From: Deltaproteobacteria bacterium
Lineage (GTDB): Bacteria > Desulfobacterota > Syntrophia > Syntrophales > Smithellaceae
DNA length: 5,299 nt
Direction: 5' to 3'
Assembly: GCA_019136325.1 (NCBI GenBank)
Contig: JAGVUJ010000029.1
Span: forward strand, 1-5,299
Shown: in pieces, positions 1-5,299 of the stretch
Layout of the letters: each line of letters starts with the position of its first letter
How positions within the stretch are numbered: the first letter of the stretch is position 1
Program-made: the position numbers and the translations under genes
Notes under the pieces: model-generated
Database searches by the model: none
Seen by the model: the letters and a program-made list of their open reading frames with translations, nothing else
What the model was told of the DNA's origin: nothing

Positions 1-594
1 AAGCGCCGCAAGCAGATTTTCAGCAGGCGTTGTTTCCCGCTCTTCCGCTTTATTATCCGCATGAAGGATTTTCAACCCTTCCTCGCCCGCCAGTTGCCAG
101 GCCAGGACACTCCAGGGTTGTTTCAGGGTGCGCGCCTTGCCCGCAGGCGAGATGACTTCCATGCCTTTTTCCACATCCAGTTTGTCAAAGCATAAAGCCG
201 CCACGCGGCAGCGCGGCGGACGCTCGCCAATGTCCTGGACGAATTCTTCGACGGCGGGCAGCTTGGGCAGCTTCGCCGGATCGTTGACGAGATGTCGAAG
301 CGTAATCAGCGTGTGCGTCTTGCCGCCGCCATAAGTTAATTCCAACTGACGCACGGCCTTGTCGTTCTTCCCTGCCAGACGGAGCACCACGTCGCGGACC
401 AAACGCCGCAGATTGAAGGTCGGAAACGTCAGGGCAAAAAACTGTTCGGGGTCTTCATAAATTTTTCTTTTTCCACGCTGCATCATCACATCGTAAAGAT
501 CGGCGGCAAACAGGTGCAACGGCAAATCACCCGACCGGAGATCTTCGCGAAGCTTCACTACTTCGTGCCAGGGCTTCCAAGGCAGCTTACTCAT
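1..594 (-). CDS. DUF499-family P-loop ATPase, N-terminal 198 residues (cut by window edge)
   Basis: This reading frame is open from an ATG at 594-592 to the window edge, so the C-terminus is missing. It begins MSKLPWKPWHEVVKLREDL. A P-loop sits at residues 88-95 (YGGGKTHT), preceded by a predicted strand (RQLELT). A GGGKTH Walker A near residue 90, in a protein that opens with a 'PW..V..L..DL..G.L' stretch, is what I know from DUF499 proteins, which are usually around 1000 residues long; Walker B would lie outside the window. DUF499 ATPases resemble the large PglY/BrxC ATPases of Pgl/BREX defence systems and often neighbour DUF1156 methyltransferases, as here. The start is secure: AAGGAGG lies 11 bases upstream and an in-frame TAA lies one codon before the ATG. 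It follows the methyltransferase gene after 82 bases. The precise role, phage sensing or DNA restriction, is inferred only from context. Confidence 0.88.
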   Translation of the reverse strand, partial: MSKLPWKPWHEVVKLREDLRSGDLPLHLFAADLYDVMMQRGKRKIYEDPEQFFALTFPTFNLRRLVRDVVLRLAGKNDKAVRQLELTYGGGKTHTLITLRHLVNDPAKLPKLPAVEEFVQDIGERPPRCRVAALCFDKLDVEKGMEVISPAGKARTLKQPWSVLAWQLAGEEGLKILHADNKAEERETTPAENLLAAL

Positions 595-605
595 CGATTA
601 TTCTT

Positions 606-612
606 CCTCCTT
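606..612 (-). promoter_or_regulatory. Shine-Dalgarno site of the DUF499 ATPase gene
   Basis: The minus strand reads AAGGAGG here, a perfect anti-16S match, 11 bases before the ATG at 594. The spacing is slightly long. An in-frame TAA between the site and the ATG rules out a longer N-terminus, so this site fixes the start. The ATPase therefore has its own strong ribosome binding site rather than relying on read-through from the methyltransferase gene. Confidence 0.8.
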
Positions 613-626
613 ATTCGATTGCATCG

Positions 627-651
627 ATTCCGCAGACGTAGTCTAACGAAT
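627..651 (-). promoter_or_regulatory. Interrupted dyad in the 82-base gap before the ATPase gene
   Basis: On the minus strand an inner inverted repeat AGAC-TAC-GTCT is flanked, after 3-base mismatched spacers, by ATTC on one side and GAAT on the other, giving a 25-base interrupted dyad. It lies between the methyltransferase stop (677) and the ATPase ribosome binding site (606-612). No U-run follows, so it is not a classical terminator. It could be an operator, a weak hairpin affecting relative expression, or chance. The same gap carries two exact CATCGATT copies on the plus strand (592-599 and 622-629), the first overlapping the ATPase start codon. Confidence 0.25.
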
Positions 652-676
652 TGCTTATTCAAACACAAATGTCTTT

Positions 677-3600
677 TCATTCCTCGTTTTCATCAAGGGA
701 CAGAATCGTCTGATCCGTCCTGACCGCGCCTTTCCCCTGAATGTGATTGCTGATGGATTCCATGAGCGATCTTTCCTCGCTGCCGGCGGCGGCAAGCTCG
801 ATAAGCGATTGCAGCAGTCTCCGAAAGAGTTCCTGCCGGCGAAGACCATTTTCGTCGAGATATTCATCCACCTTATGCAGATCGCCCGCCTTCCACAGGT
901 GCATCATCCGATGCACACGATCAATCAGGGGTACAGGCCTGCCGCCCGGCGCTTCGTAGCCCATGGATCGGCCTTTGCGCTGCATCCAGGTTTTGAGTTT
1001 CACCTTGCTGCCCGATTCTTCCAGGACATCCGAATCCGATCCCTGATCGTCAGCGGCATCCTCATCAATTTCGTCTGTTGATTTGCCTTTGGTAAACCCG
1101 ATGAGATCCCATGTGTCCGCCAGTTCCTTGTCCGATATGCCGCAGGACACGGCGTAAAGAATGCACGCGCCTGCCGGGGCTTCTTCCATGCCAAAGTCAT
1201 GGCGGTGCAGCAGGTAGTATGCGGAAGGCTCATCCAGACGGTCCCGGTTCATATTATCCATTACGCCTTCGTCTGCCGCTCCACCGCCATCACCGGACAA
1301 AACGCGGCCAACAACAAAATCCACCACCATCCGGCGGACGTGGGTAAGAAATTCACTCACCGTCATGGGACCCGGTTCATTGGCTTTGCGGACGATGGGG
1401 TGTCTGCTGTAAGCTTCCAGGGCAGGACCGGTTGCCGCCCAAACAAAGTCCGGTCCACGGATACCCGCGTCCCAGAACTCGCGAAGCTTTTCCCGGATAT
1501 TCCGCTTCATCTCTTCCAAAACCTGGTTGTCCCAGCCGGGGCGGGCTGTTGATGGTCGTTTTTTACAAACAAGCCAAACTGAAGAAGCTAGAGCTGCAGA
1601 AGAAAGCCCTCGCGTGCGATTAGCCATCTCGGTCTGAATCGGCCAACTACCGTCCACTACGAAGCCAGCTCGGATCAAAGCAGAGGCGAGCGTTTCCCAG
1701 GCAGCTGGTTCTTTGTGCGCGAACACGATGACTAATCGGCCATTGCTTTTCAACATACTAAAACAACGAAGAAAGACTCGATACATTCCCTCTTCATAGA
1801 CTTGCTTTGATTTTGCCCGATCTGCCCCATGGCGGCTCGCATCATCAATAAGTTCACCATCATTTGCGTTATGATCCCATTTCGGCGACAGGGAACTTTG
1901 AAAGGCCTCTTTGTAATCTATCGAAATATTTGATAGCATTCGCCGCAACCATATATAGAAGAAATCCATCAAATCAGAGTATGGAATAGCATCGTAGTAA
2001 GGCGGATCTGTAATGATGATATCCATTTCCTCTTTTTCAGTATCAGAAAGAGTTATTGCGCTTGTTTTTAAAACTGTTGGTAGCGGCGCATCCTGAGTTG
2101 CTTCTTTAAGTGCGCCTTCGATAGGATTAGCAATCCAATCGGTAACGGCCAACCAACCACCCGAATCACTGTCGAGGATGTTGTTTTCTGTAAAATCCCA
2201 CTTCATGGGCAAAGCCCAGCGCTGAAATGTGTTGCTTCCTTTTGCACCTTTAGGTTGCCAGGCAACAAAAGCACTATTATAATCAGCAACCTTATTCAAA
2301 ATACATGCGAGGTAGGATATAATAGCTTCTGCCCAGTGTGGGTTATAAATAGTGAAGTTAATAGCACTGAGCTTTTGAGTTAGCGTCCCAATAGTCAGCA
2401 ACTGACGTGGTGTGAAAAGCATATGCCATTGATTAAATCCATATCCATCAACCGAGAAAGCACGGCTAGCTCCAAGACCACCTTTTGGTGTTGGCTCATC
2501 AGGCCGACCAAATGGTACTTTAGTAAAATAACTGGAAACATTCTCTTGAACAATGCATATGACTTTATTTTCATGCTCTGTTGGGCTTCGAAATTCTTTA
2601 CTCTTTTGTCCTTCCACAACAACTGCGGTGTTTATGAGACCAAGACATCCTGCTTTTCCTTCAAGACGGATGTCTTCCATGGTCATAATCGTCCCGCAAC
2701 AGGGACATTTCGCGCCGGAACGTGACATGGTGCCACCGCCAATCTGTTTGTCATACTCGCGGCGTTGCGCCGTATTGCCGCCCTTAACCGGAACATTGGC
2801 CTCGATCCCAAAGACAACACCGGTATCCTCGGCGTTTGGCGTCATCGTGAGAAGAACGCGCTTCTTGTCTTTCTTGCAAAGCCAGCGGGTCTTCAAAAGC
2901 GGCACAACAGCACGGCAATTCTTGCAGGCCACCGTCCGCGCCCAGAGATAGGCTAATGTCGGTTTTGCAATCCAGCGCGGGTTGCTTTTATCATGAAGGT
3001 ATTCTTCACTGAATTCAGCGTTTAATGCTTTACTGTCCGGCGTTCCATCTTCCAAGAGATCAACCAGCCGCATGGGCTGCTTCTCGTAAGGCTTGGGGTG
3101 TCCGCCGGGAATAGGTTCAAAATCAGCATATGTCGGGTAAAAACGAGCCAGCTCGCGGCGGGCGTTTTTGAGCACCCATTGGCCCCATGCCCGCACATGC
3201 CAGGCCAGATCAGCCTTCGGGACGCGCCCGGAGTCCGGCTTATCGAAAAAGCCGGGCTGCTTTTCTTCTTTTTCTTTTTGTTTTTTTGTTTTTTTCGTGC
3301 GTCCGACCAGATGAGGATGAGCCTTGTAGAAGGCCTCCATGAAAGCGTCATCATCGACGATGAACTCCGGCAGGGGATAAGTTTTACCGGCTAATTGCTG
3401 CGGATATTCGAGCGTGCATTTCAGAATAAACCAGGCCACCGGATTAATATCCACGGCGGTGGTTTCACACCCCAGGCGCATCGCCTCCAGCGGAATCGCT
3501 CCGCCGCCGGCAAACGGATCGATCACACGCGGCGCGTGGCCACCGTTGGCCTTGCGAATCTCCTCGCGGAACCAGTCCAGAACATCTTTGTTTTTTGTTT

Positions 3601-3970
3601 CCAGGCCCCAGTGCAGGATGCCGCCTTCGGTTATTTTTTTTTCTCGCTCGATCATTTGGCCGTTGGGCATCTTCTTTTTTTCGATGGCCTTTTCAATTTT
3701 GCCGCCTATCTTCTCGCAGAGTTCACGGCGCTGCCGGATGATTTCATGATGCCAGTCTTCATCGGACATGCCTTCAGGCTTCCGTTGGGCGCTGGGATCA
3801 GGCAGCAGCGTCGCGATCAGCGCCGCCCGGCAAGCCGCCAGCGGCCGTCTCGCGGGCCAGATGTGAATAGCTTTTATATGTCCAGAATGACACATTTTTT
3901 CGTGAACAGAATCTAGTGACGCCTGCTCCAGCGGAAAAGCGTGTTCTATCAAACGGGGGTAATCGGTCAC
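677..3970 (-). CDS. DUF1156-family adenine-specific DNA methyltransferase with split zinc ribbon
   Basis: This 1097-residue protein is predicted to transfer a methyl group from S-adenosylmethionine to adenine N6 in DNA. The DUF1156 head spans roughly residues 5-60 (PRLIEHAFPL, IHIWPARRPLAACRA). SAM-binding motif I is DPFAGGG at 151-157, followed by VDINP at 173-177. Catalytic motif IV is DPPY at 655-658, and a later core strand is GRLVIVFAHK near 744-753. Between the two halves lie Cys pairs C349/C352 and C422/C425, a split zinc ribbon. A Lys/Glu-rich insertion occupies 223-240, and a 290-residue C-terminal region includes an acidic stretch near 965-985. All catalytic motifs are intact. The start is GTG at 3970, overlapping the previous stop as GTGA, with AAGGTG five bases upstream; it gives the expected family N-terminus. 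The gene lies between a Schlafen-like gene and a DUF499 ATPase gene. In such clusters the enzyme is thought to mark self DNA; the target sequence is unknown. GC content drops sharply in the middle of the gene. Confidence 0.92.
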   Translation of the reverse strand: MTDYPRLIEHAFPLEQASLDSVHEKMCHSGHIKAIHIWPARRPLAACRAALIATLLPDPSAQRKPEGMSDEDWHHEIIRQRRELCEKIGGKIEKAIEKKKMPNGQMIEREKKITEGGILHWGLETKNKDVLDWFREEIRKANGGHAPRVIDPFAGGGAIPLEAMRLGCETTAVDINPVAWFILKCTLEYPQQLAGKTYPLPEFIVDDDAFMEAFYKAHPHLVGRTKKTKKQKEKEEKQPGFFDKPDSGRVPKADLAWHVRAWGQWVLKNARRELARFYPTYADFEPIPGGHPKPYEKQPMRLVDLLEDGTPDSKALNAEFSEEYLHDKSNPRWIAKPTLAYLWARTVACKNCRAVVPLLKTRWLCKKDKKRVLLTMTPNAEDTGVVFGIEANVPVKGGNTAQRREYDKQIGGGTMSRSGAKCPCCGTIMTMEDIRLEGKAGCLGLINTAVVVEGQKSKEFRSPTEHENKVICIVQENVSSYFTKVPFGRPDEPTPKGGLGASRAFSVDGYGFNQWHMLFTPRQLLTIGTLTQKLSAINFTIYNPHWAEAIISYLACILNKVADYNSAFVAWQPKGAKGSNTFQRWALPMKWDFTENNILDSDSGGWLAVTDWIANPIEGALKEATQDAPLPTVLKTSAITLSDTEKEEMDIIITDPPYYDAIPYSDLMDFFYIWLRRMLSNISIDYKEAFQSSLSPKWDHNANDGELIDDASRHGADRAKSKQVYEEGMYRVFLRCFSMLKSNGRLVIVFAHKEPAAWETLASALIRAGFVVDGSWPIQTEMANRTRGLSSAALASSVWLVCKKRPSTARPGWDNQVLEEMKRNIREKLREFWDAGIRGPDFVWAATGPALEAYSRHPIVRKANEPGPMTVSEFLTHVRRMVVDFVVGRVLSGDGGGAADEGVMDNMNRDRLDEPSAYYLLHRHDFGMEEAPAGACILYAVSCGISDKELADTWDLIGFTKGKSTDEIDEDAADDQGSDSDVLEESGSKVKLKTWMQRKGRSMGYEAPGGRPVPLIDRVHRMMHLWKAGDLHKVDEYLDENGLRRQELFRRLLQSLIELAAAGSEERSLMESISNHIQGKGAVRTDQTILSLDENEE
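1560..2640. other. AT-rich block within the methyltransferase gene
   Basis: Hand counts of 60-base rows give about 30-42% GC inside this block (rows starting 1921, 2041, 2281, 2521). They give 55-73% outside it (rows starting 1261, 1441, 1501, 3181), with intermediate values at both edges. The block encodes about residues 444-804, which includes the DPPY catalytic motif and ends just after the last methyltransferase-core strand (VWLVCKKRP). The frame is continuous through both borders. The borders are approximate because only selected rows were counted. Confidence 0.7.
3261..3295. repeat. Low-complexity T-rich tract coding for a Lys/Glu-rich insertion
   Basis: The plus strand is almost pure T broken by single C or G bases, with two T7 runs (3281-3287 and 3289-3295) and two T5 runs. 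Read on the coding strand it gives the KKTKKQKEKEEK segment, residues 226-237 of the methyltransferase. It probably forms a charged linker or short helix between the first half of the SAM-binding core and the zinc ribbon. Such tracts can slip during replication, so length variants between strains are plausible. Confidence 0.75.
3634..3642. repeat. Nine-base homopolymer in the methyltransferase gene
   Basis: T9 on the plus strand (A9 on the coding strand) spans codons 110-113 (E-K-K-I), about 38 residues before SAM motif I. A second run, T7 at 3675-3681, encodes part of KKK at residues 98-100. A one-base slip at the A9 run would shift the frame before the catalytic core, so it is a candidate on/off switch; in this sequence the gene is in frame. 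Confidence 0.6.
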
Positions 3971-5193
3971 TTCTTCACCTTCCAGAGACGAAGGGTAAAT
4001 CGTTCGCTATCTTCTATCAGATCAGGCTCCGTGCCGTTGTGCTCTTGCATACCCTTGATAATTTTACGGGGAATACCCATCCCCATGTGTTCCAAATAAC
4101 CATAATCGCGCATCACATCTTTCAGAAGCTGGTTTCGCGCGGCACGGCAGCCGGCACGCATCCTGTCCGGCGTAATTCCGTTCGGCAATTTGCCTGGTGA
4201 AATGATTTCTAGGCGATCCTCATAGATGGACAGCTCAATATCTGTAGCCGAAAGCAAATAGTCACGGTGAACGGCAGCGTTAATCAGCGCCTCACGGATG
4301 ACTTCTTCCGGATAATCGGCCTGTTCCACACGACTCGTTCCGTGGCTCAGAACGGCGGTGACACCTGTGTTACGCTTCACGAAATAAACGGCCTGTTCGA
4401 TAACACCCGGCTCAATCAATTGATTGTCCTTATCCGTGAAAAGGCCCACCAGTGGACCACGGATGGTTGCCCGTTCCTTTGATGCATATTCTTTATCGTA
4501 ACCGGGATAGGCAACAGCATCAATACCCGCTTGTGGAATGAATCTATTAGGATTCTTGCCAAAGAGGAGCAAACCCGCCACCGTACAGACGCTTTGTTCG
4601 CCCGAGTTGGTCATGATTTCCGTGTTGATCAGCAATTGCTGCCATCCGGACATATCTTCGTCATGGGGGGTATCTTGTTTTCTGACTCGTTGGAAATAAT
4701 CCTTCAGGCGTCTAATATCGAGATCATCAATCGACGAACCTGTTACGGGCCGCACCTCCAAGCGAAAGGCACCGCGTTGCTGGAAGAGTCTTTCAAGTTC
4801 TTCCTTGCTGGCTTCTCTGCTTTGGCTGCCAACTCTAATATAATATGTGGAATGATTATCATGCCATCTGCAATGGACAGTCCAACCGACATCAACACTG
4901 ACAACAGCGATGTCTTTGCCCACATCGACATCCTTTATGATTTCAAAGAAAGGGATGATCTCCGGACGAATCTTTGTCCGGCAGGTTGTCATGACCCATT
5001 CTTCGATATCACCTCGTGTCAGGCCTGCAATAGAGCCATCGTCATCGACACCAAGCAGGACGCATCCCCCGTTTGAATTCGAAAAAGCGACAAGTTCTTT
5101 GGCCAGATCAAAATTTTGCAGTGTATCCCGCTTAAACTCCACACCAGAATTTTCTCCATTTCTGATTAATTCCAAAAGTTCCGTTTTCGTCAT
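3967..5193 (-). CDS. AlbA_2 (Schlafen-like) domain protein with GHKL-type ATPase C-terminus
   Basis: This 408-residue protein begins with an AlbA_2/Schlafen-type domain (about residues 13-135). Its signatures are E14-x4-E19-F-K, AFSNSNGGCVLLGVDDDG at 36-53 and YYIRVGSQSREAS at 117-129. A linker region follows, with GLLLFGKNP at 207-215. The C-terminus is a HATPase_c_4 (GHKL-like) domain: N-box EALINAAVHRDY at 301-312, DRLEIISPG at 326-334, and a glycine-rich GMGIPRKI at 371-378. Many relatives are annotated as putative transcriptional regulators and end in a winged helix; this one stops soon after the ATPase domain (LRLWKVKK), with no room for one. E14, E19 and D50-D52 sit where the Schlafen nuclease acidic triad would be expected, so an RNA-cleaving role is possible but inferred. 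The ATG at 5193 has AAGGAGG six bases upstream. It starts 11 bases after the preceding gene and its stop overlaps the methyltransferase GTG. It has no signal peptide or membrane segment, so it should be cytoplasmic. Confidence 0.9.
   Translation of the reverse strand: MTKTELLELIRNGENSGVEFKRDTLQNFDLAKELVAFSNSNGGCVLLGVDDDGSIAGLTRGDIEEWVMTTCRTKIRPEIIPFFEIIKDVDVGKDIAVVSVDVGWTVHCRWHDNHSTYYIRVGSQSREASKEELERLFQQRGAFRLEVRPVTGSSIDDLDIRRLKDYFQRVRKQDTPHDEDMSGWQQLLINTEIMTNSGEQSVCTVAGLLLFGKNPNRFIPQAGIDAVAYPGYDKEYASKERATIRGPLVGLFTDKDNQLIEPGVIEQAVYFVKRNTGVTAVLSHGTSRVEQADYPEEVIREALINAAVHRDYLLSATDIELSIYEDRLEIISPGKLPNGITPDRMRAGCRAARNQLLKDVMRDYGYLEHMGMGIPRKIIKGMQEHNGTEPDLIEDSERFTLRLWKVKK
3976..3981 (-). promoter_or_regulatory. 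Ribosome binding site of the methyltransferase gene, inside the upstream gene
   Basis: The minus strand reads AAGGTG, a partial Shine-Dalgarno match, five bases before the GTG start at 3970. It lies within the last codons of the Schlafen-like gene. Together with the GTGA start/stop overlap it supports GTG as the real start and suggests translational coupling of the two proteins. Confidence 0.6.
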
Positions 5194-5199
5194 AGGGTG

Positions 5200-5206
5200 C
5201 CTCCTT
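5200..5206 (-). promoter_or_regulatory. Shine-Dalgarno site of the Schlafen-like gene, overlapping the upstream stop
   Basis: The minus strand reads AAGGAGG, six bases before the ATG at 5193. It overlaps the TAA stop (5207-5205) of the preceding gene as TAAGGAGG. The perfect match and good spacing fix the start, and the overlap indicates that the two genes are co-transcribed and probably coupled. Confidence 0.85.
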
Positions 5207-5299
5207 AGAAACCGTATTTCAACCGGCGGGTCTCAAAGGCATTTTTTCCACCTTCGAGAAGTTCTTCCACCAGAATCCGGACAGGTTCATTGTCGATGG
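5205..5299 (-). CDS. C-terminal 30 codons of an unidentified upstream gene
   Basis: One minus-strand frame is open from the right edge to TAA at 5207-5205 and encodes 30 residues ending FETRRLKYGF. The other two frames are closed by stops in this stretch. The strong ribosome binding site of the next gene overlaps this stop, the usual arrangement of adjoining operon genes, which supports real coding. The visible piece looks like a helix (VRILVEELLEGGKNAF) followed by a short basic tail. I do not recognise the family; a further component of the same cluster is likely from position alone. Confidence 0.6.
   Translation of the reverse strand, partial: IDNEPVRILVEELLEGGKNAFETRRLKYGF

Follow-up and report, generated by a model that had tools for sequence, protein, structure and literature searches.

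A TrlF-TrlG pair inside a predicted Hma restriction operon, a candidate abortive module that also occurs in BREX-1 and type I restriction operons

Introduction

Genes for DUF1156 and DUF499 proteins have been named HmaB and HmaC of the candidate system Hma (PMC8565338), and Hma was later re-described as the DUF499-centred BREX-related (BR) systems (PMC12839542). Schlafen-HATPase genes beside bacteriophage exclusion (BREX) and BR loci are already in print in both papers, and one of them links Schlafen-kinase-wHTH genes to such loci in 1017 taxa or more (PMC12839542). Genes carried within Hma operons are known as 'Hma-embedded candidates' (HECs), for which a 'guilt-by-embedding' approach is cited (PMC12988326). 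A gene pair with a Schlafen-type member, trlF-trlG, is known from the temperature-restricting locus of Photorhabdus laumondii, where a temperature shift induces the trl operon and lesions in trlG allow growth at 36 C; these lesions include substitutions in both domains of TrlG and are recessive to the wild-type allele (PMC7554251).

Here we analyse a stretch of 5,299 nucleotides ("the window") from a Deltaproteobacteria bacterium of the Smithellaceae (contig JAGVUJ010000029.1), in which a Schlafen-type gene lies between the end of trlF and hmaB. We propose that the TrlF-TrlG pair (TrlFG) forms a self-contained module for abortive growth arrest within a predicted Hma restriction operon, TrlG being a predicted RNase and TrlF a predicted DNA- or damage-sensing ATPase; we judge the case for this proposal to be about evenly balanced. 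What the analysis shows directly is the conservation of the pair, its embedding in three kinds of methylation-based systems, and the motif states of the two proteins; the folds are predictions.

Results

The Schlafen gene is the TrlG of a TrlF-TrlG pair

Frame 1 of the window encodes 30 residues, all 30 of which are identical to the C-terminus of P0247, an 892-residue TrlF, and similar tails end the TrlF proteins of three related loci (L034, L049 and L052). In each of these loci a TrlF gene encoding 887-910 residues lies directly upstream of the Schlafen gene; the products score 507-534 bits against the NCBIfam model TrlF_fam_ATP (NF045780, cut-off 350) and are 49-64% identical to P0247. Because of the tail identity and the NF045780 genes upstream in the relatives, we assign the Schlafen gene as the TrlG of a TrlF-TrlG pair. 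The two genes are adjacent, as they are in the temperature-restricting locus, and in the window 11 bp separate them. The window has the following features:

5205..5299, minus strand: frame 1, partial, the C-terminal end of TrlF (PHP plus SMC/Rad50-type ATPase), 30 residues and then TAA; from tail identity
5194..5204, minus strand: trlF-trlG gap of 11 bp with a Shine-Dalgarno-like GGAGG; from the sequence
3967..5193, minus strand: frame 2, TrlG, 408 residues, with AlbA_2, a middle part and HATPase_c_4; from Pfam, the predicted model and fold matches
4810..5154, minus strand: Schlafen AlbA_2 domain, TrlG residues 14-128; Pfam SLFN_AlbA_2, 3.2e-18
5041..5154, minus strand: codon span of the predicted catalytic triad, E14 (5154-5152), E19 (5139-5137) and D51 (5043-5041); from HMMER alignment with SLFN14
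3985..4242, minus strand: HATPase_c_4 domain, TrlG residues 318-403; Pfam, 1.3e-22
3967..3970, minus strand: GTGA, four-base overlap of the trlG stop and the hmaB start; from the sequence
677..3970, minus strand: frame 3, HmaB, a DUF1156 adenine methyltransferase of 1097 residues with a GTG start; from Pfam, PADLOC and NCBIfam
1871..2470, minus strand: variable middle of HmaB, residues 501-700, a likely target-recognition region; from the identity drop against relatives
1..594, minus strand: frame 4, the first 198 residues of HmaC (DUF499 AAA+ ATPase), open at the edge; from PADLOC and NCBIfam

An earlier sequence-only reading of the window had described four co-directional frames with a GTGA overlap of the middle two. 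This arrangement is confirmed, on the minus strand and with the overlap at 3970-3967; frames 2 and 3 are complete, and frames 1 and 4 are cut by the window edges. The TrlG and HmaB frames have thousands of homologues, frame 1 has its tail match, and the same gene-family order recurs in unrelated genomes, indicating that the four frames are more than chance. Close homologues of the window proteins carry the names Smithellaceae and Syntrophales.

In a sample of one phylum, 27 of 380 genomes had TrlF (E<=1e-100), at 29 loci in all. At 16 of these loci, and at 13 of the 14 that score above 450 bits with our own TrlF profile, the next gene downstream is TrlG-like. A search for TrlG in 1580 genomes of four phyla gave a match in 23 (E<=1e-80), including four seed genomes (G001-G004) taken from the HmaB search. 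TrlF lies directly upstream of TrlG in 11 of the 23, or in 8 of 19 once the seeds are set aside, and in G147 it lies downstream; the G074 locus ends 542 bp upstream of TrlG. HmaB, present as fragments in G966, adjoins TrlG or the pair in 7 of the 23, namely the four seeds and three of the 19 others (G025, G966 and G1122). The genome searches scored the first few candidates per genome (four for TrlG, two for TrlF), so the genome counts are lower bounds. Across 27 TrlF-TrlG pairs, including the window's TrlG with P0247, the two distance matrices correlate with r=0.94. Overall, the more constant partner of the Schlafen gene is the upstream trlF, which the sequence-only reading had left unnamed.

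TrlG has a predicted Schlafen-type fold with an E-E-D triad

The predicted model of TrlG has a pLDDT of 86.2 and matches the Schlafen and SAMD9 tRNase domains in predicted fold. The HMMER alignment pairs E14, E19 and D51 of TrlG with E206, E211 and D249 of SLFN14 (chain numbering). PDB entry titles list SLFN14-E211A and SLFN11-E209A mutants, and we take SLFN14 E206 and D249 to be the catalytic partners. The E-E-D triad is present in 112 of 120 close TrlG homologues, the window's TrlG included, and accompanies the Schlafen-type fold that is predicted for the protein. TrlG is a predicted Schlafen-type RNase, and tRNA would be its most likely target. The earlier suggestion that the Schlafen gene might be an abortive effector is plausible. 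TrlG matched no HEC model in PADLOC at E<=1e-3; against PADLOC-DB v2.0.0 it gave partial matches to Argonaute-associated models, and no dedicated model for TrlFG was matched in that database. Phage records gave only distant TrlG matches, at about 27-30% identity, and 21 TrlG-related loci on viral contigs included no TrlF.

Motif states of the two proteins differ between types of pair

In the type of pair found in the window, type A, the TrlF motif HxH, which we take to be PHP motif I, reads QVN, as judged from P0247 and its relatives, and TrlG keeps both Schlafen glutamates. Among the matches listed, HxH was absent from 120 of 120 close TrlF homologues. In a sister type, type B, TrlF keeps HxH and TrlG carries E19Q. 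Among the 27 pairs, 15 have lost HxH and kept E14/E19, eight have kept HxH and carry E19Q, four have kept both motifs, and none has lost both. Six further pairs (L198-L203), several of which are near-identical plasmid copies, are HxH/E19Q, and loss of both motifs was seen in none of the 33 pairs read. TrlG identity between types is 27-35%, and that of the window's TrlG to type B is 30-34%. Searching PDB sequences with the TrlF of a type C pair yielded nothing useful on the PHP part.

The pair is embedded in Hma, BREX-1 and type I restriction operons

The pair occurs in both Hma gaps and inside BREX-1 and type I restriction-modification (RM) operons, and in these examples it lies, as PrrC-type genes do, within a restriction operon; there are also cases outside such operons. 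Its position in Hma varies, between HmaA and HmaB in L034 and L052 and between HmaB and HmaC in L049. On a Vibrio plasmid (L154, the one that was examined of three Vibrio records with a pair match) the pair sits between pglX and pglZ of BREX-1, and in E. coli ET896 (L163) it adjoins BREX genes. In the BREX-1 locus of G147 (L136:1987-13730) the order is a PglX-like gene (a match under that model's cut-off), TrlG, a Ppl-like TrlF, a second TrlG, and pglZ. On an IncC plasmid from Citrobacter (L153) the type I RM genes and the pair read hsdM-hsdS-TrlF-TrlG-hsdR. Other IncC and IncA plasmids (L198 and L201) read hsdR-TrlF-TrlG-hsdS-AAA-hsdM, an additional AAA ATPase separating hsdS from hsdM, and L200 opens in the same order and is cut by the record end; L198, L200 and L201 are type I RM operons of IncC, IncFIA and IncA plasmids. 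In Aeromonas (L202), hsdR precedes the pair and hsdS- and hsdM-like frames follow it.

Two further results concern E. coli. A near-mode search of E. coli with the Citrobacter pair gave no match. In E. coli ET915 (L164:10458-10637), a 59-residue frame after TrlF corresponds to only the start of TrlG; this locus, with TrlG decayed and TrlF kept, adjoins hsdR and a McrBC-type pair.

The Schlafen gene lies outside the Hma core

The two frames downstream of trlG match Hma families. HmaB matches Pfam DUF1156 (5.9e-16), PADLOC HmaB (2.1e-115) and NCBIfam DUF1156_antiphage (8.6e-54, under the model's curated cut-off). The 198 residues of HmaC that are present match PADLOC HmaC (1.1e-31) and NCBIfam DUF499_antiphage (1.1e-11, under its cut-off), and this partial frame had no Pfam match at E<=0.001. 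Together with the Hma and BR literature, these profile matches bear out the earlier view of a BREX-related defence-type cassette. The helicase that the same reading had proposed to look for is present in relatives: HmaA lies upstream of HmaB in 75 of 82 loci (own HmaA profile, >60 bits), with a PADLOC HmaA match of 9.7e-156 in L034, and in L021 and L034 the helicase has a NOV_C domain close to its C-terminus. The three-gene combination was not known to the sequence-only reading as a named system; it belongs to the named Hma or DUF499-centred BREX-related systems, and since PMC8565338 and PMC12839542 describe them, both the cassette and a neighbouring Schlafen gene were already known.

We surveyed 82 HmaB loci, the best 80 of 201 confirmed in genomes plus two viral ones; contig ends truncate some of them. 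Of the 82, 12 have a Schlafen-like gene (phmmer, E<=0.001), located in the HmaA-HmaB gap at 6 of 75 loci, in the HmaB-HmaC gap at 4 of 71, and outside the gaps in the other two cases. TrlF lies within six genes of HmaB at 4 of the 82 loci, each time followed by TrlG. The Schlafen gene is thus outside the Hma core. Such rarity largely matches the near-absence from related loci that, on the sequence-only reading's own terms, would refute a functional part in the cassette. The placement directly upstream of the methyltransferase, for which the same reading had proposed a count, is found in 3 of the 75 loci with HmaA upstream.

The Hma gaps often hold other genes. A gap of at least 300 bp separates HmaA from HmaB in 57 of 75 loci and HmaB from HmaC in 47 of 71; gaps below 100 bp number 17 and 22, respectively. 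We scanned 73 of 187 Hma cargo proteins with PADLOC, and HEC-01A models matched 20 and HEC-01B models 18 of them. Because many Hma operons hold cargo, HECs included, TrlFG is one of several Hma guests. A recurrent pair of about 417-429 and 187-227 residues occupies the HmaB-HmaC gap in L008, L012, L021, L023, L031, L032, L037, L040, L041, L055, L058 and L059. In L025 and L040, a different Schlafen-like gene that is not TrlF-linked lies in Hma gaps, followed by a protein of ~335 residues whose start resembles, by eye, a ParA-type ATPase. One Hma locus (L042:9944-16704) has two HmaB-like genes in tandem. The two viral Hma loci, HmaA-HmaB-HmaC operons on IMG/VR viral-collection contigs (L081 and L082), have no TrlG-like gene.

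Identity between the window's HmaB and P0124 is 88-98% over residues 1-400, 36-37% over residues 501-700 and 88-97% over residues 801-1097. The same mid-protein drop is seen against P0123, and P0122 and P0125 differ more evenly. This pattern fits an exchange of the target-recognition region. The window's TrlG is 97% identical to P0007 and its HmaB, with the divergent middle, 76% to P0124; that P0007 and P0124 share one contig is inferred from equal size (17,152).

The Photorhabdus TrlG resembles type B

The HATPase domain of Photorhabdus TrlG starts near residue 298 (PMC7554251), which resembles L198 and L199 (297) and is unlike type A (317-323). With no offset, the published wild-type residues of P. 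laumondii TrlG fit poorly, 2 to 5 of 13 agreeing. With a two-residue shift, picked after scanning nine offsets, agreement rises to 10 of 13 for pYR3 and 11 of 13 for the type B L199, as compared to 7 of 13 for the window and 5 of 13 for the type A L154. The Photorhabdus TrlG thus looks like type B in alignment. The window shares two of the residues that were hit in Photorhabdus: S16, which falls between the two glutamates, and N335 (N354 in the window). In pYR3, which the paper names as a syntenic match, trlR and trlF are reported to have two small frames for type I methyltransferases between them (PMC7554251). The motif state of its pair (L203) is HxH/E19Q, and no restriction operon was recognised around it.

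Discussion

We propose the following mechanism. HmaB would mark self DNA, its variable middle being consistent with a changing recognition site, and HmaA and HmaC, to judge from relatives and the family literature, would attack unmarked phage DNA. TrlF, a Rad50/SMC-like ATPase with an EndoQ-like PHP part in predicted fold, would either keep TrlG inactive or detect phage DNA or failed restriction. Once triggered, TrlG would cut RNA, most likely tRNA, using E14, E19 and D51, and growth would stop. In type A the Schlafen protein would be the effector, because the HxH of the TrlF PHP part is gone; in type B the roles may be reversed.

Several observations weigh against this proposal. Pairs without a recognised restriction operon are found in L135, between an acyl-CoA ligase gene and leuS, in L132 and L148, as judged with our own Hma, hsd and pgl queries only, and in L199; such operon-free pairs fit an independent passenger as well as they fit a guard. 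TrlG also occurs without TrlF, and does so even in the Hma loci L021 and L137, the L137 copy lacking the triad in the alignment. Conversely, 11 of the 23 solo TrlF proteins read are type A (QVN) with no TrlG detected by our own profile in the fetched stretch, weakening the notion that TrlF always needs TrlG. AlphaFold models and profile matches speak to fold, not function. Among type A pairs, D51 is changed in 3 of 15 (Y in L049, N in L146 and L149). Loss of HxH and loss of E19 are both clade-wide on the tree, and since each change follows a clade, the reciprocal pattern amounts to about two events. For Photorhabdus, PMC7554251 reports that lesions in trlF were neither found nor selected. Because the Photorhabdus TrlG aligns as type B, the growth-arrest evidence concerns a cousin of the window gene, and because its pYR3 relative lacks E19, a type B TrlG probably stops growth without the full triad.

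The main rival sees TrlFG as an independent defence module for which restriction operons are no more than safe, transferred and co-expressed landing sites, and which neither senses nor depends on Hma. We consider this rather unlikely. It is consistent with TrlFG or TrlF alone lacking a recognised restriction operon (the four loci above and plasmids L157-L161) and with the Hma gaps being general cargo sites, as their sizes and the HEC-01A matches indicate. The profile-matched relative Ppl, a single-gene system, points the same way. By contrast, TrlFG occurs between the genes of three unrelated methylation-based systems, in tight operons, and some solo TrlF genes also have BREX genes, type I RM genes or a methylase gene as neighbours (L155, L156, L164 and L165), surroundings for which a random passenger would need no preference.

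The remaining two readings appear improbable. That the Schlafen gene, coupled to the methyltransferase, works as one of the components of a three-gene DUF1156/DUF499 system would explain the GTGA overlap with hmaB and the loci where TrlG precedes HmaB without TrlF (L021 and L137). In addition, a single supported clade of 14 (97/97) holds 8 of the 12 TrlG rows of the tree that are linked to Hma, five of the eight being query or HmaB-search derived. This is difficult to reconcile with the scarcity of Schlafen-like genes in HmaB loci and directly before HmaB, with the same pair in BREX and type I RM, and with L049, where TrlG precedes HmaC rather than HmaB; the contrast between near-identity of TrlG to P0007 and divergence of HmaB from P0124, on what is inferred to be a shared contig, argues in the same direction. 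Equally doubtful is that TrlG, with its AlbA_2 and HATPase domains, is the transcription regulator of the operon and no nuclease. Annotations such as 'RecG', 'putative DNA binding domain-containing protein' and, in some plasmid records, 'transcriptional regulator' favour such a role, as does loss of E19 in type B, whereas the triad shared by close relatives, the predicted structural match to Schlafen and SAMD9 tRNase domains, and the growth arrest relieved by recessive Photorhabdus substitutions in both domains (PMC7554251) count against it.

A broader version of the abortive-module proposal is that TrlFG guards methylation-based restriction in general, as a transferable unit of Hma, BREX-1 and type I RM alike, and that its killing activity passed from one partner to the other: in one type the PHP site died and the Schlafen glutamates were kept, in the other the Schlafen protein lost one and the PHP site survived. 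The Photorhabdus 'temperature restriction' would then be a misfiring anti-phage abortive system. We put this forward tentatively and would sooner doubt it than accept it. If true, three different methylation-based barriers would share one portable two-gene backup, which widens the principle of PrrC and PARIS; an orphan 'temperature restriction' locus would gain a biological purpose; and the motif states of the two types predict opposite effector partners, which provides a clean test.

Comparison with known systems

Like the Hma or DUF499-centred BR systems (PMC8565338; PMC12839542), the window has the HmaB and HmaC families, and its relatives show the A-B-C order with an SNF2/DEAD-type helicase upstream; unlike them, the window carries the embedded TrlFG pair, and HmaA would lie beyond the window. 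The Schlafen-kinase-wHTH genes of PMC12839542 are alike in protein class to TrlG and alike in kind of locus; that paper treats Schlafen as one among several auxiliary effectors, and its main text does not contain the words TrlF, PHP or histidinol. HECs share with TrlFG the status of defence cargo inside Hma operons (PMC12988326), and TrlF matches HEC-01A/02A weakly, via the ATPase. In the searchable literature, judged partly by titles, no account of TrlFG as a module for defence came up.

The Photorhabdus trlR-trlF-trlG locus shares with the window the trlF-trlG order and the domain architecture of TrlG, and its trlG is needed for growth arrest (PMC7554251). It differs in being type B by alignment, with about 30% identity, in having upstream the regulator gene trlR, which would fall beyond the window here, and in lying between polA and dsbA; the paper reads it as temperature restriction, and the word phage is absent from its main text (PMC7554251). 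The anti-phage protein Ppl (PADLOC, NCBIfam) resembles TrlF in combining PHP with an SMC-type ATPase. The type C TrlF of L173 aligns to Ppl over near-full length (457.8 bits), whereas the type A match is weak and partial (120 bits for P0247), with the PHP HxH lost. Ppl is a single-gene system.

An effector embedded in a restriction operon is an already known kind of arrangement. The effector families of PrrC and PARIS are presumably unrelated to those of TrlFG. PrrC in EcoprrI and PARIS (AriAB) nonetheless resemble the TrlFG proposed here in that an RNA-cutting effector is held by an ATPase or restriction complex and set off when restriction is attacked (PMC12409349), and we propose this PrrC/PARIS type of guard for TrlFG only as a working likeness.

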